Shown here piece by piece: positions 161-9,452 of a stretch of DNA of 64,000 nt. The number at the start of each line of letters is the position of its first letter. Position 1 is the stretch's first letter. Source of the stretch: a virus; IMG/VR virus record IMGVR_UViG_3300020203_000013, positions 1 through 64,000 of that record. The stretch is one strand, 5' to 3'. The notes beneath the pieces are model-generated. The model was not told the DNA's origin. It worked only from the letters and a program-made list of their open reading frames with translations, and searched no databases. The translations under genes were made by a program, and so were the position numbers.

Positions 161-1642
161 TTATTTTCCTTTAATTACTAACAGTGGTTTTAATTTAGCT
201 ACTTTTTTTGCTAGTCCAGCAATTTCTACAGAATTAATAACCTGATCAAAAGGCTTATAAGAAAAGCTGGACTCATCAATGGGATAATCTGTCCCCTGGA
301 ATATTATATCTGCATCATTCATGTCCTTGTTAACTTGCTCTTGGGAGAAGGATTTAGTGGCTGCGGTACGGGACATGATCCTCCCAGCTCCGTGATTAAT
401 GCTGTATGCAGTCTTGACTGCATTTTCTAATCCCACCATCACATAAGATCCATCTTTGGCATTTCCAGGTAATAGAATTGGGTGTCCAGTTTCATAAAAT
501 GGGGTATTCTTCAGGGAGAAGTGTTTGGCTGGATATGCCCTGGTTGCACCTTTCCTTAATACCCAAAGCTTTCTATTATCTATAATTTCTTGTCTACCTA
601 TGTTATGGCTAATGTGGTATATAAACTCACCCGTAACTCCAGGAATGACTTCCTTAATGGAGTCCAATAGTAGTTTGTTAACATATAGATGATTCATTAT
701 TGCAAAATTTGCGGCGAGTTGCATGTCTAGAATATAATCCTTAGCTTCTTGAGAATCTAAAGGAGCAAATACTAGTTCCTTATCTCCAGCTGGGTATTCT
801 TGATGCCAGGTTTTAAACCTCTCTTGTAGTCTATGAAAGTTATCGGTTGCTAAAGAGTTCCCAAAACCTCTAGAACCAAAATGGGAAAGTATTGCAGTCT
901 TGCCCTCTTTAAGTCCAAAAGCGTCGAATTCAGGCGAGTCACTTACTTTTTGAACTTCGGCCATTTCTACAAAATGATTTCCGCCACCGATTGAACCCAG
1001 CTGCCTTAATTTACTGTGTAAGGTATGTTTAAAGGTATTTTCTGATAACCAGTTATACCTGGACATAAGAAAGTCCCTCCTGTTCCCATGAGAAGAGTCC
1101 TCACACCTGTCTATCCATTCTGCTGGGATTCCTAAAGTCTTTAAGGTGAACTGATTAGCACCAGCTTGAATAGCACCTATAACGTGACTCCTAAACTCTT
1201 GATCTTCTATTAAACTTCTTGAAATAGGATTTTCTCCATCTAATCCTACTCTCTTTAATATCTCAGTAATAATCCGTCTTCTAAGCTTTTTATCTTTTAA
1301 CTCTGATGCTGGAACATCTAATTGTAACAAGGACATTGAGCAGTTAACATCAACCCCTGCTGGGGCTGGATAAATAGTCCCATCAGTAACCATTACACTT
1401 CCTACTGGAACCCCATATCCAACATGTGCATCTGGATTTAAGATTAACTCCTTCACTCCTGGGGCATTACGGGAGTTTAAAGCCTGCTGAATACACTGGT
1501 CTTCTAAACCACTCACAATGAACTCATTACCTATAATTGTGATAGGTTTACCAGCCTTACCGTGATCGAGATAAGAGATTCCAGGCTGAGAAGACGGTAT
1601 AATTTTATTTTTCATAAAAGTGCTATTTAGAGCATTAAACAT
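161..1642 (-). CDS. rtcB: RtcB family RNA-splicing ligase
   Basis: RtcB joins RNA 2',3'-cyclic phosphate or 3'-phosphate ends to 5'-OH ends, using GTP and Mn2+. The 493-residue length is normal for the family. The signature motifs occur in order: DAHVGYGVPVG (71-81), GVDVNC with metal ligands Asp98 and Cys101, GGGNHF with His223, SHFGSRG with His254, SHN with His346, and INHGAGR with His417, the histidine that carries GMP. The C-terminus IAGLAKKVAKLKPLLVIKG is typical. All known metal and guanylylation residues are kept, so activity is likely. It is the last complete gene of the left operon, which also holds a nucleotidyltransferase of the RNA-repair-associated RlaP type and a macrodomain. 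A likely role is repair of tRNA or other RNA cut by host anticodon nucleases or toxins. Neither candidate start (1642 or the ATG at codon 10) has a clear ribosome-binding site. Confidence 0.95.
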   Translation of the reverse strand: MFNALNSTFMKNKIIPSSQPGISYLDHGKAGKPITIIGNEFIVSGLEDQCIQQALNSRNAPGVKELILNPDAHVGYGVPVGSVMVTDGTIYPAPAGVDVNCSMSLLQLDVPASELKDKKLRRRIITEILKRVGLDGENPISRSLIEDQEFRSHVIGAIQAGANQFTLKTLGIPAEWIDRCEDSSHGNRRDFLMSRYNWLSENTFKHTLHSKLRQLGSIGGGNHFVEMAEVQKVSDSPEFDAFGLKEGKTAILSHFGSRGFGNSLATDNFHRLQERFKTWHQEYPAGDKELVFAPLDSQEAKDYILDMQLAANFAIMNHLYVNKLLLDSIKEVIPGVTGEFIYHISHNIGRQEIIDNRKLWVLRKGATRAYPAKHFSLKNTPFYETGHPILLPGNAKDGSYVMVGLENAVKTAYSINHGAGRIMSRTAATKSFSQEQVNKDMNDADIIFQGTDYPIDESSFSYKPFDQVINSVEIAGLAKKVAKLKPLLVIKGK

Positions 1643-1672
1643 CAGAAAGCTTACTCTACTATGCTAATTAGA

Positions 1673-1686
1673 ACACTTATAGTAAT
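1673..1686 (-). promoter_or_regulatory. Putative phage promoter motif before rtcB
   Basis: Read on the minus strand this is GTATTACTATAAGT, a variant of the RTACTATWT motif found before many genes here. It lies about 37 bases before the rtcB start in the 136-base gap between genes. It is weaker than the best copies because it has ATTACTAT in place of RTACTAT. Confidence 0.4.
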
Positions 1687-1758
1687 ACCTCCAAGCTAAC
1701 TTGGCCTGTTTTACTACAAATTTGCTTCCCCTCTAGCAGTAGTATCAGTATCGTCAAT

Positions 1759-1780
1759 AAACCTATAAAACTTTAGGTTT
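1759..1780 (-). terminator. Weak hairpin at the end of the 66-residue gene
   Basis: AAACCTA and TAGGTTT can form a 7-bp stem overlapping the stop codon of the gene at 1779-1979. No U-tract follows on the minus strand, so this may be a weak terminator or an RNA-end stabiliser. The rest of the gap to 1643 holds a small CCAAG/CTTGG hairpin and the promoter-like motif. Confidence 0.3.
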
Positions 1781-1979
1781 ATTTCTCATAGAAGTTTTCT
1801 TCAACCCAGCTTATAGAATACCAATCTACTAAATTGATGTCAAACTTTAATAGGTATTTTTGGATATTTAAGTCTATATGTATCAACTCTACTGGGGAGT
1901 CTTCTGGTAGTTCAAAGCTAGTGATACCACATAGATATCTTTTACCTTTTTTAGAGTGTAAAGTCTTAAGTGTTACCAT
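1779..1979 (-). CDS. Hypothetical protein, 66 aa
   Basis: A small acidic protein with no motif I recognise. Its ATG overlaps the end of the coiled-coil gene at 1973-2395 by 7 bases, which suggests translational coupling. It contains several Trp and Tyr residues near the C-terminus (WYSISWVEENFYEK) and no membrane segment. It lies between the RlaP-like and RtcB genes, so it may be co-expressed with RNA-repair functions. Confidence 0.6.
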   Translation of the reverse strand: MVTLKTLHSKKGKRYLCGITSFELPEDSPVELIHIDLNIQKYLLKFDINLVDWYSISWVEENFYEK

Positions 1980-2395
1980 AGGTTCTTCTTAATAGTACCT
2001 ATTTGCTCTTTAAGATCTTTTACTAGGTTATGCACCTTAAATGCTTTATTTGAAGCCGTGTCCCTCTCAGATTGTTTACCTGATACTCCCCATTGCCTGT
2101 CTCTAAGTCTGTCGCCTTCCCCTTTTAGATAAGAAGACACACTAGCCCTAATAGCTTGAGATAAAGGTAATTTACCTAGCAAGGGATCTATAACCGTTCT
2201 TAAGGTTTCTATGGAATCTTTCTGTTGAGCTAGTAGATCCTTATCCCTCTTCATACTTACTATTACTTTTTCATAAGCTATGTTAGTTTCTCTGCTTTTT
2301 TTATGGGCCTTCTTTAAGGAGTCCTTAGCGGCTAACAACTCCTGTCTCTTAACTGCCAGCTCCTCATGTAATTTTTTTCTGGTTAAGGTGCTCAT
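1973..2395 (-). CDS. Hypothetical coiled-coil protein, 140 aa
   Basis: The first 75 residues are rich in Lys, Glu, Leu and Ala with heptad-like spacing, so a long coiled coil is likely. The C-terminal half is basic and polar. The start overlaps the preceding RlaP-like gene through ATGA, a coupling arrangement. No enzymatic motif is visible. Its position between RlaP-like and RtcB genes makes it a candidate partner or scaffold, but that is inference from position only. Confidence 0.65.
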   Translation of the reverse strand: MSTLTRKKLHEELAVKRQELLAAKDSLKKAHKKSRETNIAYEKVIVSMKRDKDLLAQQKDSIETLRTVIDPLLGKLPLSQAIRASVSSYLKGEGDRLRDRQWGVSGKQSERDTASNKAFKVHNLVKDLKEQIGTIKKNLW

Positions 2396-3294
2396 AGGAC
2401 TTTATCTATTATCTTTCTAACTTCTAGTAGAGCTTGTTTGTTTTTATCACCGCTAATATCCGTATTTAGTATATCAGATAGATCTCCAAAGTGCATTGCC
2501 AAACATTTCAATAATAGATTCTTTATTTCTTCTTCTCTAATCTCATAAGGAACTACTGTTGAATCTAGGTAGATTTGTTCTAACTGTTTCTCTTTAATAT
2601 TAAACCAATTTTTAATATCTTCGACTGTCCAATTTCCTGCTCTAATGTCTTTATACATCTCTTTATCCCTTTGAAGGTCTAAATTCCCTTCAGTGAGGAT
2701 CTGTTCAGCTTGGCATAGTAGTCTAACTGTATGATACGCAAATTTTGTGTCTAACCCTTTGGCCTTTATATCTTCTTTTCTTTTTGAGGATGTGGATTTC
2801 TTACCACTACTTAGGTTCGCCATCTGACTAAATGCGAACCCCTTACAGGTATGCCAGCACTTCTTGCTAAGAAATAGTTTTCTATTCTCCCTAATAATAG
2901 TACCTATAGAGGTTATATGAGTAATGCAGTTAGCTGGAACAAATAAGGCATCTAATATGTTGGGGTTTGCATTGGCGGCCAATCTGAAGAACTTGACTAT
3001 ATTGAATACGTTTATATCGTACTCTTTTTTATCTATCTGAATATTGTGCTTTTGATAAGAGTTAAAGGTTTTAAAGTCCTCATCAAAGCCATACATTACT
3101 CCACTGGTGTGAGGGAAAACTATAGTCTTATTTGGAATGCAAATTGCCTGTACGTCATGGTCGGCCTTATCTGGATCATTACATCCGTAAGCGGTAGATC
3201 CAGTAATGCACTCATAGTGAATATTATCCTCTATGAAGCTGGGTTGATCTATTAGGTGATCGTGCTTAATTAAACGGTTGACGATTCCTGACAT
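2392..3294 (-). CDS. RlaP-like DNA polymerase beta-superfamily nucleotidyltransferase
   Basis: The N-terminus carries the nucleotidyltransferase signature: GSTAYG (32-37) followed by ADHD (44-47), with Asp45 and Asp47 as likely metal ligands. The following pattern, including KEYDINVFNIVKFFRLAANANPN in two adjacent helices and a LFVPAN strand-turn, matches the YcgL/RlaP group (PF10127) as I remember it. That family is described as associated with RNA repair, and here rtcB lies two small genes downstream. The C-terminal 100 residues are helical and charged. An AAGGAG site six bases before the ATG supports the start; the gene overlaps its upstream neighbour by 25 bases. The exact substrate (RNA or nucleotide) is unknown. 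Confidence 0.8.
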   Translation of the reverse strand: MSGIVNRLIKHDHLIDQPSFIEDNIHYECITGSTAYGCNDPDKADHDVQAICIPNKTIVFPHTSGVMYGFDEDFKTFNSYQKHNIQIDKKEYDINVFNIVKFFRLAANANPNILDALFVPANCITHITSIGTIIRENRKLFLSKKCWHTCKGFAFSQMANLSSGKKSTSSKRKEDIKAKGLDTKFAYHTVRLLCQAEQILTEGNLDLQRDKEMYKDIRAGNWTVEDIKNWFNIKEKQLEQIYLDSTVVPYEIREEEIKNLLLKCLAMHFGDLSDILNTDISGDKNKQALLEVRKIIDKVL

Positions 3295-3830
3295 TCTAAC
3301 TCCTTTTGTAGAACTTCTTTAAACTGAACCCAAATAGATTCATAAAAATTATTCAAGTCTCTATTAACGTTTGTATAGGTCTCAGGATAATCTCCGTTAT
3401 ATATGTAATCGAAGTTGGATAGATACATTACTTCTCTACAAAATGATTCAGTATTATTAAAACCCTCATCCACTAGGTTAGTAAATTCGTCCCAGAACTC
3501 TCTAGTCTTTTCTTTATTACCTCGTCCATCTCTTCTAAGTTTTAAAAGGTTCTCGTATATTCCTTTAACAGTTTTATCAAAATCAAATTCTCTTTCCAAG
3601 CCTTGACCAAGTTTACCTAAGAAGTAACTCTTATCTAGTGATAGAAGAAACTGTTTAAAGGTATCCGCTCCTATACTAGTCCAGATGTAGCCATAAGCTC
3701 CGTAGGAGGAATTAATTATAAGGCTTCCTCCACCTTCCCAGGGTTCCAGAACTATTCTTGCCCACTCACCCCTTATTTTTAAAGAGTATTGAGGAACATG
3801 CGAAAGCTTTGCTTCTAGTTTAGTATTCAT
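3270..3830 (-). CDS. Hypothetical protein, 186 aa
   Basis: The ATG at 3830 is preferred over the one at 3842, because GGGAGGAG lies immediately upstream of it and the stop codon of the preceding gene overlaps it as TAATG. The N-terminal half is beta-rich and aromatic, with SLIINSSYGAYGY around residues 40-52, and the middle is helical (LLSLDKSYFLGKLG). I associate this pattern with an uncharacterised family seen in several phages, but cannot give a function. It could be a small regulator or inhibitor. Confidence 0.65.
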   Translation of the reverse strand: MNTKLEAKLSHVPQYSLKIRGEWARIVLEPWEGGGSLIINSSYGAYGYIWTSIGADTFKQFLLSLDKSYFLGKLGQGLEREFDFDKTVKGIYENLLKLRRDGRGNKEKTREFWDEFTNLVDEGFNNTESFCREVMYLSNFDYIYNGDYPETYTNVNRDLNNFYESIWVQFKEVLQKELECQESSTV

Positions 3831-4057
3831 TACTCCTCCCACCCTATCTGCTTACTTAACCAAGGTTCCCACCCGCCCATGTCTTTGTGGAAGGTATCAA
3901 ATATAGTTTGCATTACAACAGATTGCTGTTCCCTTTCCTTTTCAAAATTAAGGTCGCTATATTTCAAGTCCGTTCCAGCACTAGGAAGGAATCTTAACCA
4001 CTTACCTAGCTGGACTTTATCTGCCTTTTTAACTTCTTCTAATGTTGGATATTTCAT
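3830..4057 (-). CDS. Hypothetical protein, 75 aa
   Basis: A small protein with the pattern LGKWLRFLP in the N-terminal half and GGWEPWLSKQIGW at the C-terminus. I recall similar short proteins in other phage genomes, always unassigned. Its ATG lies at the proximal edge of a tandem duplication of the leader (4055-4127). Its stop overlaps the next start as TAATG, so the two genes are translationally coupled. Confidence 0.65.
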   Translation of the reverse strand: MKYPTLEEVKKADKVQLGKWLRFLPSAGTDLKYSDLNFEKEREQQSVVMQTIFDTFHKDMGGWEPWLSKQIGWEE

Positions 4058-4127
4058 ATTAAGTATCTCATTCGGGTTAATTTGTAAACTTCATATTAAG
4101 TATATCGGTCAGGTTAGTTGTAAACTT
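4055..4127. repeat. Tandem duplication of a 36-37 base leader
   Basis: Two head-to-tail imperfect copies lie at 4055-4091 and 4092-4127. In gene direction each has AAGTTTACAA near its start and ends with ATACTTAATATG. The proximal copy supplies the start codon of the 75-residue gene; the distal copy has an ATG in the same context but no long frame. It may be a duplicated translation-initiation region, a decoy start or an operator pair. Confidence 0.6.
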
Positions 4128-4137
4128 TAGATTAAAA

Positions 4138-5085
4138 TTACCAATCTACACCAAAAGATAAAAATCCAAACCCTCTTACAGGATCTTCTTGTTCTTTATA
4201 ATCTCTAGTTCTCATGTTATAGATAAATCTAAGTTCATAGTTGTTATATTGAGCCCCAAATCCGCTTTCCAGGCCTCCTATAAAGGGCTCCTTATCTACT
4301 GTGTGGGGAGATTCTGTAAAGATTCCGCCATCATAGTAAATGTTTCTAAGTCTCGCGGATACATAGGGAGTAGAGAATACAAATAGACTTAGTCTATCTC
4401 TTAATAGATTATTTAAAGTAGGTAGATTATAGCCCGCCCTGGCCCCATACGCAAGGGTTCCATCTGTTTGAATGTTGCCCAGTCTTGCCAGCTCAGTGCC
4501 TTGTAAAGCGAAGCCTAGAGACCCTCTGTTAAGTCTGAGATCCTCCCAGGTCTGTTCGTGATCTATATTAACTATAGGTTCCGTGGCTATCTGATTATCC
4601 CACCCATTAGGGCGCTCGTTGAGTCTTCCTATACTACTTAAAGCTCCGTGAACTCCTATTTGGGTTTGTGCTGCCAAGGATGGTCCTCCAGACGAGCCCA
4701 CTCTGATTGTGGTCGAGGTCTTACTCGTTGTAGTCATTATTAACTTCTTCAAGTTTAAAGTTAAGGTTCCAGCATAAGGATTTTCATTTTTTATAATTTC
4801 CTCGTCTTTAATGTTATCGGGAGTGTACATATCCTGTCTTAGGCCAATCAAGTACCTACTGCTTGTTTGGTTGGGATCTAAGTCAGTTGGGACTGGTATT
4901 AATTCAAATACCTTCTGCATTGCTGCTGGAAATTTTTCTGGAGAACCTGAGTAGTTTAATCCTGCACCGTTGGTAAAGTTACCATCGGTACCAGTAAATA
5001 CATCATTCTGAAGGTTAAAAGATACATTAGAGCACCCCTGAAGGAAGAAGCTAGTCAGAGCTATCGTTATTCTTATCCTTTTCAC
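4138..5085 (-). CDS. LpxR-like lipid A deacylase, predicted outer-membrane lipoprotein
   Basis: Members of the LpxR family (DUF2219) are outer-membrane beta-barrels that remove the 3'-acyloxyacyl group from lipid A. This 315-residue protein starts with a basic, hydrophobic segment ending in LQGC (15-18), a plausible lipobox. Family features follow: QNDVFTGTDGNFTNG (26-40) with the Asn27-Asp28 pair, RQDMYTPDNI near 83-92, NPYAGTLTL near 102-110, QIGVH with His146, and NGWDNQIATEP (160-170). By my alignment these match the catalytic Asn, Asp and His of LpxR. The C-terminus alternates polar and aromatic residues and ends in W, as barrels often do. The start is GTG and overlaps the preceding gene by 35 bases. 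A phage copy could change the host surface during infection, for superinfection exclusion, immune evasion or membrane weakening. Confidence 0.85.
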   Translation of the reverse strand: MKRIRITIALTSFFLQGCSNVSFNLQNDVFTGTDGNFTNGAGLNYSGSPEKFPAAMQKVFELIPVPTDLDPNQTSSRYLIGLRQDMYTPDNIKDEEIIKNENPYAGTLTLNLKKLIMTTTSKTSTTIRVGSSGGPSLAAQTQIGVHGALSSIGRLNERPNGWDNQIATEPIVNIDHEQTWEDLRLNRGSLGFALQGTELARLGNIQTDGTLAYGARAGYNLPTLNNLLRDRLSLFVFSTPYVSARLRNIYYDGGIFTESPHTVDKEPFIGGLESGFGAQYNNYELRFIYNMRTRDYKEQEDPVRGFGFLSFGVDW

Positions 5086-5323
5086 TTCTTTCTTGACTCT
5101 TTTTGGTTTTATCTTTTAAGGTGGTTTTTATATTAACGGTTAAATTATCTTCAAATGAAACTTTATCAAACTTTTTATTATAGAAGTTAGAGTAGTCTTT
5201 CCAAGATATAGATTCTAGAAAATCCTTTACTATCTGTTCTTTATCTACTACCTCAGGGTTATAAAAAAGAGCATACTCTAATTTTCCATCTATGTAAAAC
5301 TTTCTATGCTTACCTGTAATCAT
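5051..5323 (-). CDS. Hypothetical protein, 90 aa, charged C-terminus
   Basis: The first 60 residues look like a small mixed alpha/beta domain with many aromatic residues (LEYALFYNPEVV; WKDYSNFYNKKFD). The last 25 residues are almost entirely Lys, Glu, Asp and Ser and are probably disordered. The start follows the macrodomain stop as TAATATG, and its end overlaps the LpxR-like gene. No family recognised. Confidence 0.6.
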   Translation of the reverse strand: MITGKHRKFYIDGKLEYALFYNPEVVDKEQIVKDFLESISWKDYSNFYNKKFDKVSFEDNLTVNIKTTLKDKTKKSQERSEKDKNNDSSD

Positions 5324-5324
5324 A

Positions 5325-5783
5325 TTACTTGGGCTCTACTAAATAGATGGTAAGATCTTTATTAGTTATTTTACTTAATCCTAGTATCATTTCGTCTTTA
5401 ACGTCTTCCCAGCTCAGTCCCCCTAGACCACAACCTAAGGCTGGAATAGCTATACTTTTTACAGAGTGACCATGATTTAGAAAAGGAACTAAATTTTTAA
5501 TACCCTGTTTTATCCAGATTAGTTTGGATGGATTTCTCCAATGATCCTTGGTCGCTAGGTGGTATATTATTTTTCCTGACTCTCTAGTCTCTAAAACAGT
5601 CCCTGGTTGCATGTATTTAAAATCACATTTTTCTTTATATGACTTATAAGAGTTAGGGAACTTTTTCTTAAACTCTAGAGCTAGTCCTTTACCCATAACT
5701 CCTACACAATTAACTGGGTTGACTAAAGCATCAGCATCTAATAAAAATATATTACTTTTTGTAGTCGTAATTATAAAGCCCAT
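5325..5783 (-). CDS. Stand-alone macrodomain of DarG/TARG1 type
   Basis: A single 152-residue macrodomain. The ADP-ribose-binding loop is NPVNCVGVMGKGLA (22-35); the second loop is PALGCGLGGLSW (114-125). ATKDHWR (77-83) contains Lys79, which aligns with the catalytic lysine of DarG and human TARG1 as I remember them. Those enzymes remove ADP-ribose from thymidine in DNA or from glutamate. This subtype fits the sequence better than poly-ADP-ribose readers or MacroD enzymes. DarT toxins ADP-ribosylate phage DNA as a defence, so a phage macrodomain without the DarT partner is a natural antidote. An alternative is Appr-1''-phosphate processing linked to RNA repair. The ribosome-binding site AAGGGG supports the start. 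Confidence 0.88.
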   Translation of the reverse strand: MGFIITTTKSNIFLLDADALVNPVNCVGVMGKGLALEFKKKFPNSYKSYKEKCDFKYMQPGTVLETRESGKIIYHLATKDHWRNPSKLIWIKQGIKNLVPFLNHGHSVKSIAIPALGCGLGGLSWEDVKDEMILGLSKITNKDLTIYLVEPK

Positions 5784-5803
5784 GTTTTAAAGTACCCCTT
5801 AAT

Positions 5804-6142
5804 TTATGGACACACCTGATGGGACCCATCTACCATAGCTTGAGCCTCCATGCTTGCTAAGACTCTATTTAACTTTTTTGCACTAACTGATCCCGCTGGA
5901 ACTATCCTGTTTAGCATAGAGAACTTTTCTGGAAAAATACGTTTGCCCGCCTCGTAGGATACTGCATCATCTAGGGTGAATTTATACTTAGTATAATCTC
6001 CTCTAGAATGATCCTTTACTGTTTTTATATTGACCCAAAACTTATCACTGGTCCAAGGTTGCCACCCTTTAGCTTTAATAAGCTCTTCTTTAGTAGATTT
6101 AGACTGCTTGAGTATTAAGTTTAATAACTGATCTGTATACAT
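5804..6142 (-). CDS. Hypothetical protein, 112 aa
   Basis: A small soluble basic protein. The middle holds WQPWTSDKFWVNIKTV, and the C-terminal half is helical (SAKKLNRVLASMEAQAM). The ATG sits one base after the TAG of the preceding gene, so the two are probably coupled. No domain recognised and no signal peptide seen. Confidence 0.6.
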   Translation of the reverse strand: MYTDQLLNLILKQSKSTKEELIKAKGWQPWTSDKFWVNIKTVKDHSRGDYTKYKFTLDDAVSYEAGKRIFPEKFSMLNRIVPAGSVSAKKLNRVLASMEAQAMVDGSHQVCP

Positions 6143-6143
6143 A

Positions 6144-6347
6144 CTAGTGAAAACAAAATATTAAGATTCCAATTATAACGGGTAATCCTATAGATATTGC
6201 AAAAACAATAAATCCATTTCTGTAGAACAGACGTGCATGTTCCTGGCAGTACAGCCAAGATTGCATATTCTCGGGCTGAGTTTCTGGGACTAGTTGAGTT
6301 ACTTTTTTGGTCCCTACTAGATTGCATCCTCTCTTTTCACAGGTCAT
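6144..6347 (-). CDS. Small tail-anchored protein with CX4C...CX2H cluster
   Basis: A 67-residue protein with Cys3, Cys8, Cys34 and His37, spaced like a small zinc site, followed by a hydrophobic helix at about residues 45-65. This gives a tail-anchored topology with a cytoplasmic metal-binding head. The start overlaps the preceding gene through ATGA. A competing 68-residue frame at 6121-6327 shows no such pattern and is treated as a shadow. Function unknown. Confidence 0.6.
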   Translation of the reverse strand: MTCEKRGCNLVGTKKVTQLVPETQPENMQSWLYCQEHARLFYRNGFIVFAISIGLPVIIGILIFCFH

Positions 6348-6724
6348 ATAAATCCTTTAAAAATGTTTCTTATTTGTTTAAAATTATTTAAAAACCCACT
6401 TGGAGTTGTCTGAGTTTTTACCAGATCCTCTGTGCTGGCTTTAAGCCTGTCTAAAGATTTTTCAAGTTCGGCTTGGAGTTTAAAAGGCTTTTCTTTCTGA
6501 AGTTTGGCCGTTTTCTCTGAAGGACTTCTAATTAAGTAATTATCTTTAAACCAAGCCTCAAAAGCTACTTCTTCTATTTCTGGATAGCACTCTGATTCGG
6601 GATCTTTGTCCTTATTATCCTCTAAGACCATGTCTATGTAATCATTAGTAATACCACACATAAAGGCATTATGTATTAATGACCTTTCTCTGTTAGTTAC
6701 AGCTGTTCTTTTAATTTTACTCAT
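6344..6724 (-). CDS. Hypothetical protein, 126 aa
   Basis: A mostly helical protein with an acidic segment near residues 33-48 and a Lys/Glu-rich possible coiled coil at 70-105. The N-terminus (MSKIKRTAVTNRERSLIHNAFM) is basic. It overlaps the next gene through ATGA. No function can be assigned. Confidence 0.6.
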   Translation of the reverse strand: MSKIKRTAVTNRERSLIHNAFMCGITNDYIDMVLEDNKDKDPESECYPEIEEVAFEAWFKDNYLIRSPSEKTAKLQKEKPFKLQAELEKSLDRLKASTEDLVKTQTTPSGFLNNFKQIRNIFKGFI

Positions 6725-6756
6725 ACAATACCTTATCGACTGATTAATTTAAAACT

Positions 6757-7401
6757 TTAGATAAAATATGATGTTGCGGTTTTAGGATCAGCCACATGGT
6801 TCAAGAATTTATTTAATATAAAAGTCATTATAGGGTTCCTATATATTTTCCAAAGACGGTCAGATCTTTGCTTCCAGTTGGGTTTTCCATCTTTATATCT
6901 GTTCTTATGAAAGATACTAGTACTTATAAATGTATAAAATAATCCAGCACTTATGTACAACTTTAACCTATCAATAAAGGTCAAAGGAGTCAGTATGTAT
7001 GCCCTACTATAACAAAATATAACTTCTGGGTTTCTATGTACTTTAGAGTAATCTAAGACTTTACAGTTTTGTGGTATGTAAACAGTGTAAGGAAATTCAT
7101 AAATACTTTTATCTTCCAATGCCTTATTCAGTTCTTCTTCATCTTTACAGTTGTAGTAATTTAATACATCTTGTAAGTCTTGACCTTCTACTGAATCCCA
7201 ATAACCATCAGTGACTGAATTAAAGTAATGTACTTTTCCAGTAATTTTATTTCTACAGACTCCTGATAGAGGTCCGTCATAATACTTTAAATGCCAAAGT
7301 ATTTCTACATCTTTCCTATCAGTCTTTGGCAGTACTTTACCAGTTTCTTTTAGAATTGCTTCCTGTATTAACTCAAAGTCTTTTCTAAATAAAGGGTCCA
7401 T
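6757..7401 (-). CDS. Hypothetical protein, 214 aa
   Basis: An aromatic-rich protein. The N-terminal half carries short motifs such as YYDGPLSGVC and VHYFNSVTDGYW, suggesting a compact beta domain. A moderately hydrophobic stretch near residues 145-162 (LYISAGLFYTFISTSIF) could be a membrane-associated helix. The C-terminus is basic. I do not recognise the family. The preceding RHH-like gene ends 11 bases upstream of its ATG. Confidence 0.6.
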   Translation of the reverse strand: MDPLFRKDFELIQEAILKETGKVLPKTDRKDVEILWHLKYYDGPLSGVCRNKITGKVHYFNSVTDGYWDSVEGQDLQDVLNYYNCKDEEELNKALEDKSIYEFPYTVYIPQNCKVLDYSKVHRNPEVIFCYSRAYILTPLTFIDRLKLYISAGLFYTFISTSIFHKNRYKDGKPNWKQRSDRLWKIYRNPIMTFILNKFLNHVADPKTATSYFI

Positions 7402-7412
7402 AGGTTTTTAAT

Positions 7413-7625
7413 TTAACTTAATTTAACTATCTGAATTACTTTTTTATCTTTCAAGATAGCTACTTCATGTCCAGACTCTGAAGCAGTATTAAAGTGATCT
7501 AACAAGGCGATAGCTTTATTGACTACACTTACCTTATTTAGATTAAGTTTCTTGCCTAAGTTATTAGCTAAAGCTGTAACCTGGGGTGTAAGCTCTACCT
7601 TAAATGGATGTTCTTTTTTTGACAT
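7413..7625 (-). CDS. Putative ribbon-helix-helix-like small protein, 70 aa
   Basis: The pattern of a beta strand (FKVELTP) followed by two helices (LANNLGKKLN and VSVVNKAIALLDHFN) fits the ribbon-helix-helix fold used by small DNA-binding regulators, in which the strand contacts the DNA major groove. A C-terminal beta hairpin follows (HEVAILKDKKVIQIVKL). It lies directly after the VOC-like gene. It could be a regulator of this operon or an antitoxin-like protein; no toxin partner is apparent. Assignment rests on secondary-structure pattern only. Confidence 0.5.
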   Translation of the reverse strand: MSKKEHPFKVELTPQVTALANNLGKKLNLNKVSVVNKAIALLDHFNTASESGHEVAILKDKKVIQIVKLS

Positions 7626-7626
7626 A

Positions 7627-8181
7627 TTATTTTAAATCCTTAGTAGATTCCATTAGCTGTTTAACATTTGCGGAGCAGAATCCATGTTGCCCTCTTTTAA
7701 TAAACTCTATAATTACTCCAGTAAACTTATTTGGTTTAGTGAATACCTGGTCTAATTCATCTTCTGGGCAGGTTAAGATGTCTTTAGTTGTAAATTCAGC
7801 CCACCCTTTAGTTTGCCATTCAACCATCTTAGCTCGTACATCTTCTACCTGGAAGGCACAATGGTGAAAGCCTCCTATTCCTCCTCTAGCCTGAACCCAG
7901 AGGTCTACGACTGACCCTGGTTCCCCTTCTGAGATAAAAATTTCAGGGGCCATATGATATTCATTTCCAGTTGGGAAACCATCTAGTACTTGCGGTAAGG
8001 CCCACTCAAAGGTTAAAGAGTTTACCTTTTCTGGAGGCTCCATAGCTGTACAGACGGCTTTAGTACCATCATCAAATACAACTTCAAACTCTTGTTGAAT
8101 TTTGTATCCAAAGGCTTCCATATAAAATTGAACTGCTTCTTGTCTATTAGGAACCCTAAGAGCTATATGGTCTAAACGCAT
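7627..8181 (-). CDS. VOC family protein resembling 4-hydroxyphenylpyruvate dioxygenase C-terminal half
   Basis: A vicinal-oxygen-chelate protein of 184 residues with two paired beta-alpha-beta modules. The putative metal ligands are His5 (DHIAL), His106 or His107 (GFHHCAF) and Glu159 (GVIIEF), the His-His-Glu set of the family. The C-terminus GQHGFCSANVKQLMES resembles the end of 4-hydroxyphenylpyruvate dioxygenases, where a helix closes the active site. It is half the length of those enzymes, so the substrate is probably different. Its start overlaps the preceding gene as TAATG. A host-derived metabolic or resistance gene is likely; such genes are unusual in phages. Confidence 0.75.
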   Translation of the reverse strand: MRLDHIALRVPNRQEAVQFYMEAFGYKIQQEFEVVFDDGTKAVCTAMEPPEKVNSLTFEWALPQVLDGFPTGNEYHMAPEIFISEGEPGSVVDLWVQARGGIGGFHHCAFQVEDVRAKMVEWQTKGWAEFTTKDILTCPEDELDQVFTKPNKFTGVIIEFIKRGQHGFCSANVKQLMESTKDLK

Positions 8182-8444
8182 TAATGAACCTTTTTCTTCT
8201 TTTCATCTGATAAGACATCGGGAAAAGATTCCCTAAGTTTATCTTCCAGTTCTGGAAATATATCTTTTAAATAATCAAATGTGTCACTCTCTATTAAATT
8301 AGACAGCTCTCTTAACTTTGTTAGAATAGGTTTGGGCATTTCAGATGGTAGTTCTTTAGAACTTTTAAATAGAAAACTTTCTAGGTATATTCTAACAAAC
8401 TCAATAGTCTCTAAAATCTCTATTTCTTTTTCAGGTAAAGACAT
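8181..8444 (-). CDS. Hypothetical protein, 87 aa
   Basis: A small acidic helical protein (KEIEILETIEFVRIYLESFLF at the N-terminus in two short helices, then KLRELSNLIESDTF) ending in a basic tail. It lies two bases after the GroES gene stop, so it is co-transcribed with GroES. No motif recognised. Confidence 0.6.
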   Translation of the reverse strand: MSLPEKEIEILETIEFVRIYLESFLFKSSKELPSEMPKPILTKLRELSNLIESDTFDYLKDIFPELEDKLRESFPDVLSDEKKKKVH

Positions 8445-8446
8445 GT

Positions 8447-8737
8447 TTATTCCTCTATGACTGCTAGTACATCCTCTTCGTGCATAATTAAAACCTTTTG
8501 AGTTCCATCATTAACTTCCGCGCCTGAGAATTTTGCAAACAGAATCTTGTCTCCTACTGACACCTTAACTGGTGCAATTTCTCCAGATTGTAATAACCTG
8601 CCCTCTCCAATAGCTAATACTAATCCTTTTTGTGGTTTTTCTTGAGCGTCTTTTACTAAAATGATTCCACCAGAAGACTTCTCGTCTGATTCATCTCTTT
8701 TAACTACAATTCTACCGTAAAGTGGTCTAAAACCCAT
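8447..8737 (-). CDS. groES: GroES-type co-chaperonin
   Basis: The 96-residue length and order of motifs match GroES: N-terminal strand RPLYGRIVVKR (4-14), a mobile loop around residues 17-34 containing the hydrophobic GGIIL that docks on GroEL, a GKGLVLAIGEG-like strand here KGLVLAIGEG (37-46), KVSVGDKILFAKFSG (58-72), and the C-terminal EEDVLAVIE (87-95). Phages use such proteins (T4 gp31 is the model) to let host GroEL fold their large capsid protein. No GroEL partner is seen in this window. An AGGAGA ribosome-binding site precedes the ATG. Confidence 0.95.
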   Translation of the reverse strand: MGFRPLYGRIVVKRDESDEKSSGGIILVKDAQEKPQKGLVLAIGEGRLLQSGEIAPVKVSVGDKILFAKFSGAEVNDGTQKVLIMHEEDVLAVIEE

Positions 8738-8819
8738 ATAAAATATCTCCTAAAAAATGACTATACCAAATTAAATTAAAGATGTCTAATCTGAAATAAT
8801 AACTTAAGTAGTCAATTAT

Positions 8820-9107
8820 TTAATTGGAGGGGCTAACTTGAGAATACGGCATGAGTAGCATTTGACCGCTATTGCCGGATATTAGTAGGGCTGGATTTTC
8901 TGGAGAGCCTAGTTGAGTAACAGTGACTCCACCTAGCTTTTTAGTAACGTTACGTTTATAAATGGCTTTGATAATTCCTTTAGAGCTAGTTGTCGGGCCC
9001 CAAGCTACATTCTGACCTACCTTAAACCCAGCGGCAATAATCTTAATGGTTGTCTGGGCTAATTCAATCTTATTATCTAATAGTTCTAGCAGGTTATCAA
9101 TATCCAT
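8820..9107 (-). CDS. Hypothetical SH3-like protein, 95 aa
   Basis: After an N-terminal helix (about 1-25) the protein has a beta-rich part with FKVGQNVAWG, KGIIKAIYKR and a central glycine-rich turn, a pattern typical of small SH3-like barrels. The ATG at 9107 lies only about ten bases from a promoter-like motif, and no ribosome-binding site is visible, so translation may be leaderless or start differently. Function unknown. Confidence 0.5.
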   Translation of the reverse strand: MDIDNLLELLDNKIELAQTTIKIIAAGFKVGQNVAWGPTTSSKGIIKAIYKRNVTKKLGGVTVTQLGSPENPALLISGNSGQMLLMPYSQVSPSN

Positions 9108-9164: not shown

Positions 9165-9452
9165 ATGAAATGGAACGTTGATACACTGTTAAAGGGTTAT
9201 TTTCACAAGGCTACTGTTGAGTGGGGCCAACCTGCTCAAATGTTGGTTGCAGTAGAGGAGATGGCTGAACTAACTAAAGAAATTGTAAAGAATTTAAATC
9301 GGGGCAAAGAGAATGAGGAAGAGATAATAGAAGAACTTTCTGATGTTATTATAATGTGTTTACAGTTAACTGAAATATATGGTGGACAGAAGGTTGAAGA
9401 TATGATAAATAAAAAATTAGAAAGATTTAAAGCTAGGATAGATAATATATGA
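9165..9452 (+). CDS. MazG-like nucleotide pyrophosphohydrolase
   Basis: A 95-residue single-domain MazG-type protein. The metal-binding helices carry EEMAEL (31-36) and EELSDV (56-61), the ExxE and ExxD motifs of the all-alpha NTP pyrophosphatase superfamily. These enzymes hydrolyse (d)NTPs to monophosphates, and phage copies are thought to adjust nucleotide or alarmone pools. It is the first gene of a three-gene plus-strand island, unlike its neighbours on both sides, and overlaps the next gene by ATGA. Confidence 0.85.
   Translation: MKWNVDTLLKGYFHKATVEWGQPAQMLVAVEEMAELTKEIVKNLNRGKENEEEIIEELSDVIIMCLQLTEIYGGQKVEDMINKKLERFKARIDNI

Follow-up and report, generated by a model that had tools for sequence, protein, structure and literature searches.

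A stand-alone DarG-type macrodomain in a phage contig without DarT: a candidate eraser of DNA ADP-ribosylation

Results

Genomic setting of the macrodomain gene

The stretch analyzed here (the window) is the initial 64 kb of a linear virus record of 102,268 bases. At positions 5325–5783, exactly where a sequence-only reading of this DNA had placed it, lies a macrodomain gene (P0001) encoding 152 amino acids from an ATG start. The gene is on the minus strand, which the earlier reading had not specified, and frame 1 of the plus strand across the same positions is packed with stop codons. The ORF list of the window includes phage structural genes (portal, capsid-like and tape-measure), and the 102,268-base contig encodes a terminase whose nearest counterpart among named phages shares only about 28% identity. 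None of the five phage records found through terminase similarity, some of which may be fragments, carries a homologue of the macrodomain over the cut-off, and the gene thus looks accessory.

The gene sits in a closely spaced minus-strand run (161–9107) that is presumed, from gene order and gaps, to be a transcription unit. A one-base gap separates its stop codon from the next gene, and a gene at 9165 on the plus strand is divergent from the run. Members of the run with a possible bearing on RNA are RtcB, a tRNA-splicing/RNA-repair ligase (161–1642, minus strand; PF01139, E 3.3e-102), and RlaP, of an RNA-repair nucleotidyltransferase family (2392–3294, minus strand; PF10127, E 3.2e-19). The run also encodes a glyoxalase-like protein, a GroES-like ORF identified by reading the sequence, and an LpxR-family protein (4138–5085, minus strand; PF09982, E 5e-57) of the lipid A 3′-O-deacylase family. 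No counterpart of the LpxR gene turned up in 50,697 phage records, and one single-protein scan of viral contigs, within its sensitivity, gave none either; it would be unusual for a phage to encode lipid A remodelling.

Several further features were observed outside this run. An actin-like Volactin-family gene (L002:948-2000; PF25216, E 1.6e-59) lies on the same phage contig, outside the window. Clusters of sugar-nucleotide, aminotransferase, glycosyltransferase and acetyltransferase-like ORFs, recognized by eye (L002:13204-18782 and L003:795-4557), suggest surface-sugar remodelling. At L003:6881-19289 small ORFs follow one another on the minus strand in a long series, and by eye many of them begin alike (MNxLLxKxYxK) and end alike (TWWI); a profile search seeded with one such ORF gave no confirmation that they form a family.

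Sequence and predicted structure point to DarG

By sequence, the 152-residue protein matches the Pfam Macro domain far better than chance would allow (E 9.5e-16). The DarG models of NCBIfam (E 9.5e-50) and PADLOC (E 1.1e-52) match over only positions 1–146 of 338 and the initial 143 of 329, respectively, and the NCBIfam score (NF048014) of 169.8 bits falls below the cut-off of 250 bits. The phrog_335 profile, which describes a single-domain phage protein, matches residues 4–150 (E 1.9e-32), and in the viral library the macrodomain protein from Vibrio phage VAP7 matches best. Among proteins of solved structure, the best relatives are the DarG macrodomains of M. tuberculosis and T. aquaticus (E 4.6e-30 and 1.1e-28; profile scores of 207 and 198 bits), then the DarTG structure 7omu, and then TARG1 (E 6.1e-9; 71 bits). 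Profile scores are lower for SCO6735 (5e3b, 37 bits), for the MacroD-like models of PRK00431 (33 bits at best) and for AF1521 (23 bits), and the Poa1p phosphatase is a far weaker match than DarG in both sequence and fold.

An AlphaFold model of the protein (mean pLDDT 96.6, pTM 0.91) superposes on DarG (PDB 5m31/5m3e for TaqDarG, 5m3i for MtbDarG) with TM-scores of 0.90–0.92 and an rmsd of 1.5–1.8, compared with 0.76–0.80 for TARG1 and about 0.73–0.80 for the other macrodomains listed. DarG therefore ranks first and TARG1 second in both sequence and predicted fold, in line with the DarG/TARG1 type that had been proposed. Membership of the DarG-type subclass, rather than of MacroD or AF1521, is well supported by the sequence scores and the model.

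The active-site features named in the sequence-only reading are all present. Loop 1 (VNPVNCVGVMGKG, residues 21–33; 5685–5723, minus strand) contains Asn25 and Lys32, the equivalents of TaqDarG Asn22 and Lys29, for which the TaqDarG mutants N22A and K29E have been described (PMC5179494). Loop 2, the ADP-ribose-grasping loop, reads GCGLGGL (residues 117–123; 5415–5435, minus strand). Between them lies ATKDHWR (residues 77–83; 5535–5555, minus strand), in which Lys79 aligns with the catalytic Lys80 of DarG. Over the N-terminal part, TaqDarG residues correspond to those of the phage protein as N8=N11, L9=I12, T20=P23, N22=N25, K29=K32, V31=L34 and Q34=E37; further on, the pairs are T79=T78, K80=K79, H82=H81, W83=W82, G117=G117, G119=G119, N120=L120 and G121=G121. 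Lys80 is essential in DarG and Trp83 has been proposed to stack with thymine, whereas TARG1 has Ala90 at the latter position (PMC5179494). In lone viral copies, that is, those with no adjacent DarT, Lys79 is kept in 75 of 75 and Trp82 in 74 of 75. Given this conservation and the DarG-like predicted fold, the data do not fit a MacroD or AF1521 protein with Lys79 outside the active site.

Absence of DarT and of the DarT-binding domain

The observation that the window holds no DarT-like gene is correct and extends to the whole contig: neither PF14487 nor our own DarT profile found a match in the 102,268 bases, so that a DarT located elsewhere on the contig was rejected. A profile built from 62 DarGs likewise detected no DarG C-terminal (DarT-binding) domain in the 102 kb, which leaves the antidote domain only, as had been suggested, and which also disposes of a split or hidden C-terminal domain in neighboring genes. 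Neither KptA (PF01885) nor NADAR was found in the contig. Since it has neither the DarT-binding domain nor the toxin partner, the two defining features, the protein is not a DarG antitoxin proper.

Distribution of lone and DarT-paired relatives

To place the protein among its relatives, we ranked loci by similarity to the 152-residue protein and took the top 80 from bacterial and archaeal genomes and the top 80 from viral contigs. The viral-contig relatives were retrieved with an alignment query, a single-protein scan of viral contigs having given none, and many records in the sample may be fragments. An adjacent DarT was present at 71/80 cellular loci vs. 13/80 viral loci (Fisher p 2e-21). 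The DarG C-terminal domain was absent at the loci of 74 short lone viral copies (66 from viral contigs and 8 from named phages) and present in all 15 viral DarT-paired copies, and no DarT was found in 50 whole records carrying lone copies. Homologues of the protein occur in 372 of 50,697 named-phage records; E. coli phages with a relative include Kuravirus SU10, Bas90 and Bas91. Lone DarG-type macrodomains are thus a common phage gene class, of which the protein described here is one member. Related lone copies in phrog_335 and its kin, such as those of Vibrio phage VAP7, Kuravirus SU10 and Eowynvirus, share at most about 45% identity with it and carry annotations that range from phosphatase and Appr-1-p processing protein to hypothetical protein.

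No conserved partner gene was found beside the lone copies; the commonest neighboring family, with one DNA-methylase-like example, occurred at 11/74 loci. In phylogenetic trees the lone copies are diverse. P0001 was placed outside the cluster holding all DarT-paired DarGs with an SH-aLRT of 91 in one tree and 61 in another, and because of this disagreement the placement is not relied on here. Apparently complete DarTG pairs were also seen in phages, namely in Thermus phage phiMa (L010:3276-5032) and on a gut phage scaffold (L013:5980-7008 together with the upstream gene); these pairs are annotated as hypothetical or ADP-ribose phosphatase related, or carry no annotation.

A proline in place of DarG Thr20

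One pocket residue departs from DarG. Pro23 (codon at 5715–5717, minus strand) occupies the position of Thr20 in TaqDarG, a residue that contacts ADP-ribose. This position is Thr in 86/86 DarT-paired DarGs and Pro in none of them, while Pro occurs in 47/75 lone viral and 6/9 lone cellular copies; the DNA patterns used to scan for relatives permitted both residues. Because a phylogenetically independent test of Pro23 against DarT absence rested on just 3 supported pairs, we treat Pro23 as a lead and not as a proven correlate of DarT absence.

Discussion

We propose that the protein, a phage-encoded macrodomain of the DarG subclass, is an ADP-ribosyl hydrolase which, with no DarT of its own, removes ADP-ribose from thymidine in phage DNA and thereby counters DarT. 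We give this reading a probability of roughly 0.55. Enzymatic activity, thymidine as the substrate and a benefit against DarTG hosts are each plausible by analogy with characterized relatives. By itself, the macrodomain of TaqDarG can rescue cells from DarT toxicity, unlike its K80A mutant (PMC5179494), the DarT-free homologue SCO6735 also neutralizes DarT (PMC9411070), and DarTG is a phage defence against which phages evolve antagonists (PMC11481870); together these findings argue that a 152-residue protein of this type may erase the DarT mark. If active, it would work like the catalytic half of DarG. The enzyme would bind ADP-ribose on thymidine of single-stranded phage DNA, Lys79 would attack C1″ of the distal ribose and Trp82 would stack near the modified base; release of ADP-ribose would then allow replication to proceed. 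It would be a catalytic eraser, and toxin sequestration is not expected because the DarT-binding C-terminal domain is missing.

Comparison with known systems helps to delimit this proposal. With DarG the protein shares its predicted fold, the catalytic Lys, the equivalents of N22, K29, T79, H82 and W83 and the ADP-ribose loops, but it differs in the missing C-terminal domain and darT and in the Thr20-to-Pro change. TARG1 (C6orf130) is likewise a stand-alone macrodomain with a catalytic Lys and a similar fold, although it is a much weaker sequence match and has Ala90 where the phage protein has Trp82. SCO6735 of Streptomyces coelicolor resembles it as an unpaired macrodomain, of the ALC1-like class, but uses Gln85 instead of Lys and has a longer loop. 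The proposed outcome, phage escape from DarTG, is that of the anti-DarT factors AdfA and AdfB (PMC11481870). AdfB, however, is a protein of 77 residues that probably binds DarT itself, whereas the phage macrodomain would erase the product of DarT.

The idea that phage macrodomains oppose DarT is already published as a possibility. According to Iyer et al., macrodomains occur in about 40% of phages of medium size and in 56% of jumbo phages; these authors argued that most of them target soluble ADP-ribose derivatives and considered removal of ADP-ribose from DNA conceivable for some (PMC9503650). A survey of viral protein structures has also recorded matches that cover the macrodomain of DarG but lack its C-terminal region (PMC12487901). 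Within a literature scope that excluded preprints and most subscription journals, we found no demonstration of a phage DarG-type macrodomain countering DarTG.

Another nucleic-acid substrate for the same class of enzyme, either RNA (at uracil bases or terminal phosphates) or DNA ends modified by host transferases other than DarT, is a possible but unlikely alternative. TaqDarG and TARG1 both hydrolyze ADP-ribose linked to uracil in RNA, which counts against the thymidine reading, but TARG1 is the more efficient of the two on uracil adducts, while they are comparable on thymine (PMC13036486). TARG1 in addition acts on phosphate-end adducts (PMC11833690), yet the overall match of the phage protein is to DarG and not to TARG1 or SCO6735. 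An RNA role is conceivable since RtcB and RlaP lie in the same run as the macrodomain gene, though relatives lack this neighborhood: among the relative loci screened, RtcB occurred at none and RlaP at 5, of which 4 are from closely similar phages, and RNA repair was rejected as a family-wide context.

The alternative of another substrate also draws on Pro23, which distinguishes many unpaired copies. As this residue replaces a Thr that is never Pro in the 86 DarT-paired DarGs, the pocket may suit another substrate. Tentatively, and with low probability, unpaired DarG-type macrodomains could form a separate phage enzyme class in which the Thr20-to-Pro change has shifted the pocket from the DarT thymidine adduct to the mark of some as yet unrecognized host defence; a mark on RNA, for example, would fit the RtcB and RlaP neighbors.

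The general proposal for phage macrodomains (PMC9503650) would instead have the protein clear soluble ADP-ribose derivatives, such as immune signals or toxic metabolites of NAD-based defence, O-acetyl-ADP-ribose, or ADP-ribose-1″-phosphate from RNA repair of the KptA type. The proximity of RtcB and RlaP counts in favor of this reading, but the contig has no KptA, the MacroD-like families and Poa1p match much more weakly than DarG, and the base-stacking Trp of DarG is retained in nearly all lone copies; we regard this explanation as improbable for the present protein. Loss of darT and truncation could have occurred, given the complete DarTG at 15 viral loci, but a degenerate toxin-antitoxin remnant with no present function is very improbable, because the ORF and its key catalytic residues are intact, Lys79 is invariant in lone viral copies, and the single-domain form is common to 74 viral copies whose diversity indicates that it has been maintained.

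If the protein does erase the DarT mark from thymidine, phages would have a way past DarTG that repairs the marked DNA enzymatically, in addition to antagonism of the toxin as with AdfA and AdfB. Because lone copies occur in many cultured phages, E. coli phages in laboratory collections among them, one experiment could give a function to a gene that is annotated as a phosphatase or as hypothetical. The Thr20-to-Pro difference offers a testable lead to substrate choice.
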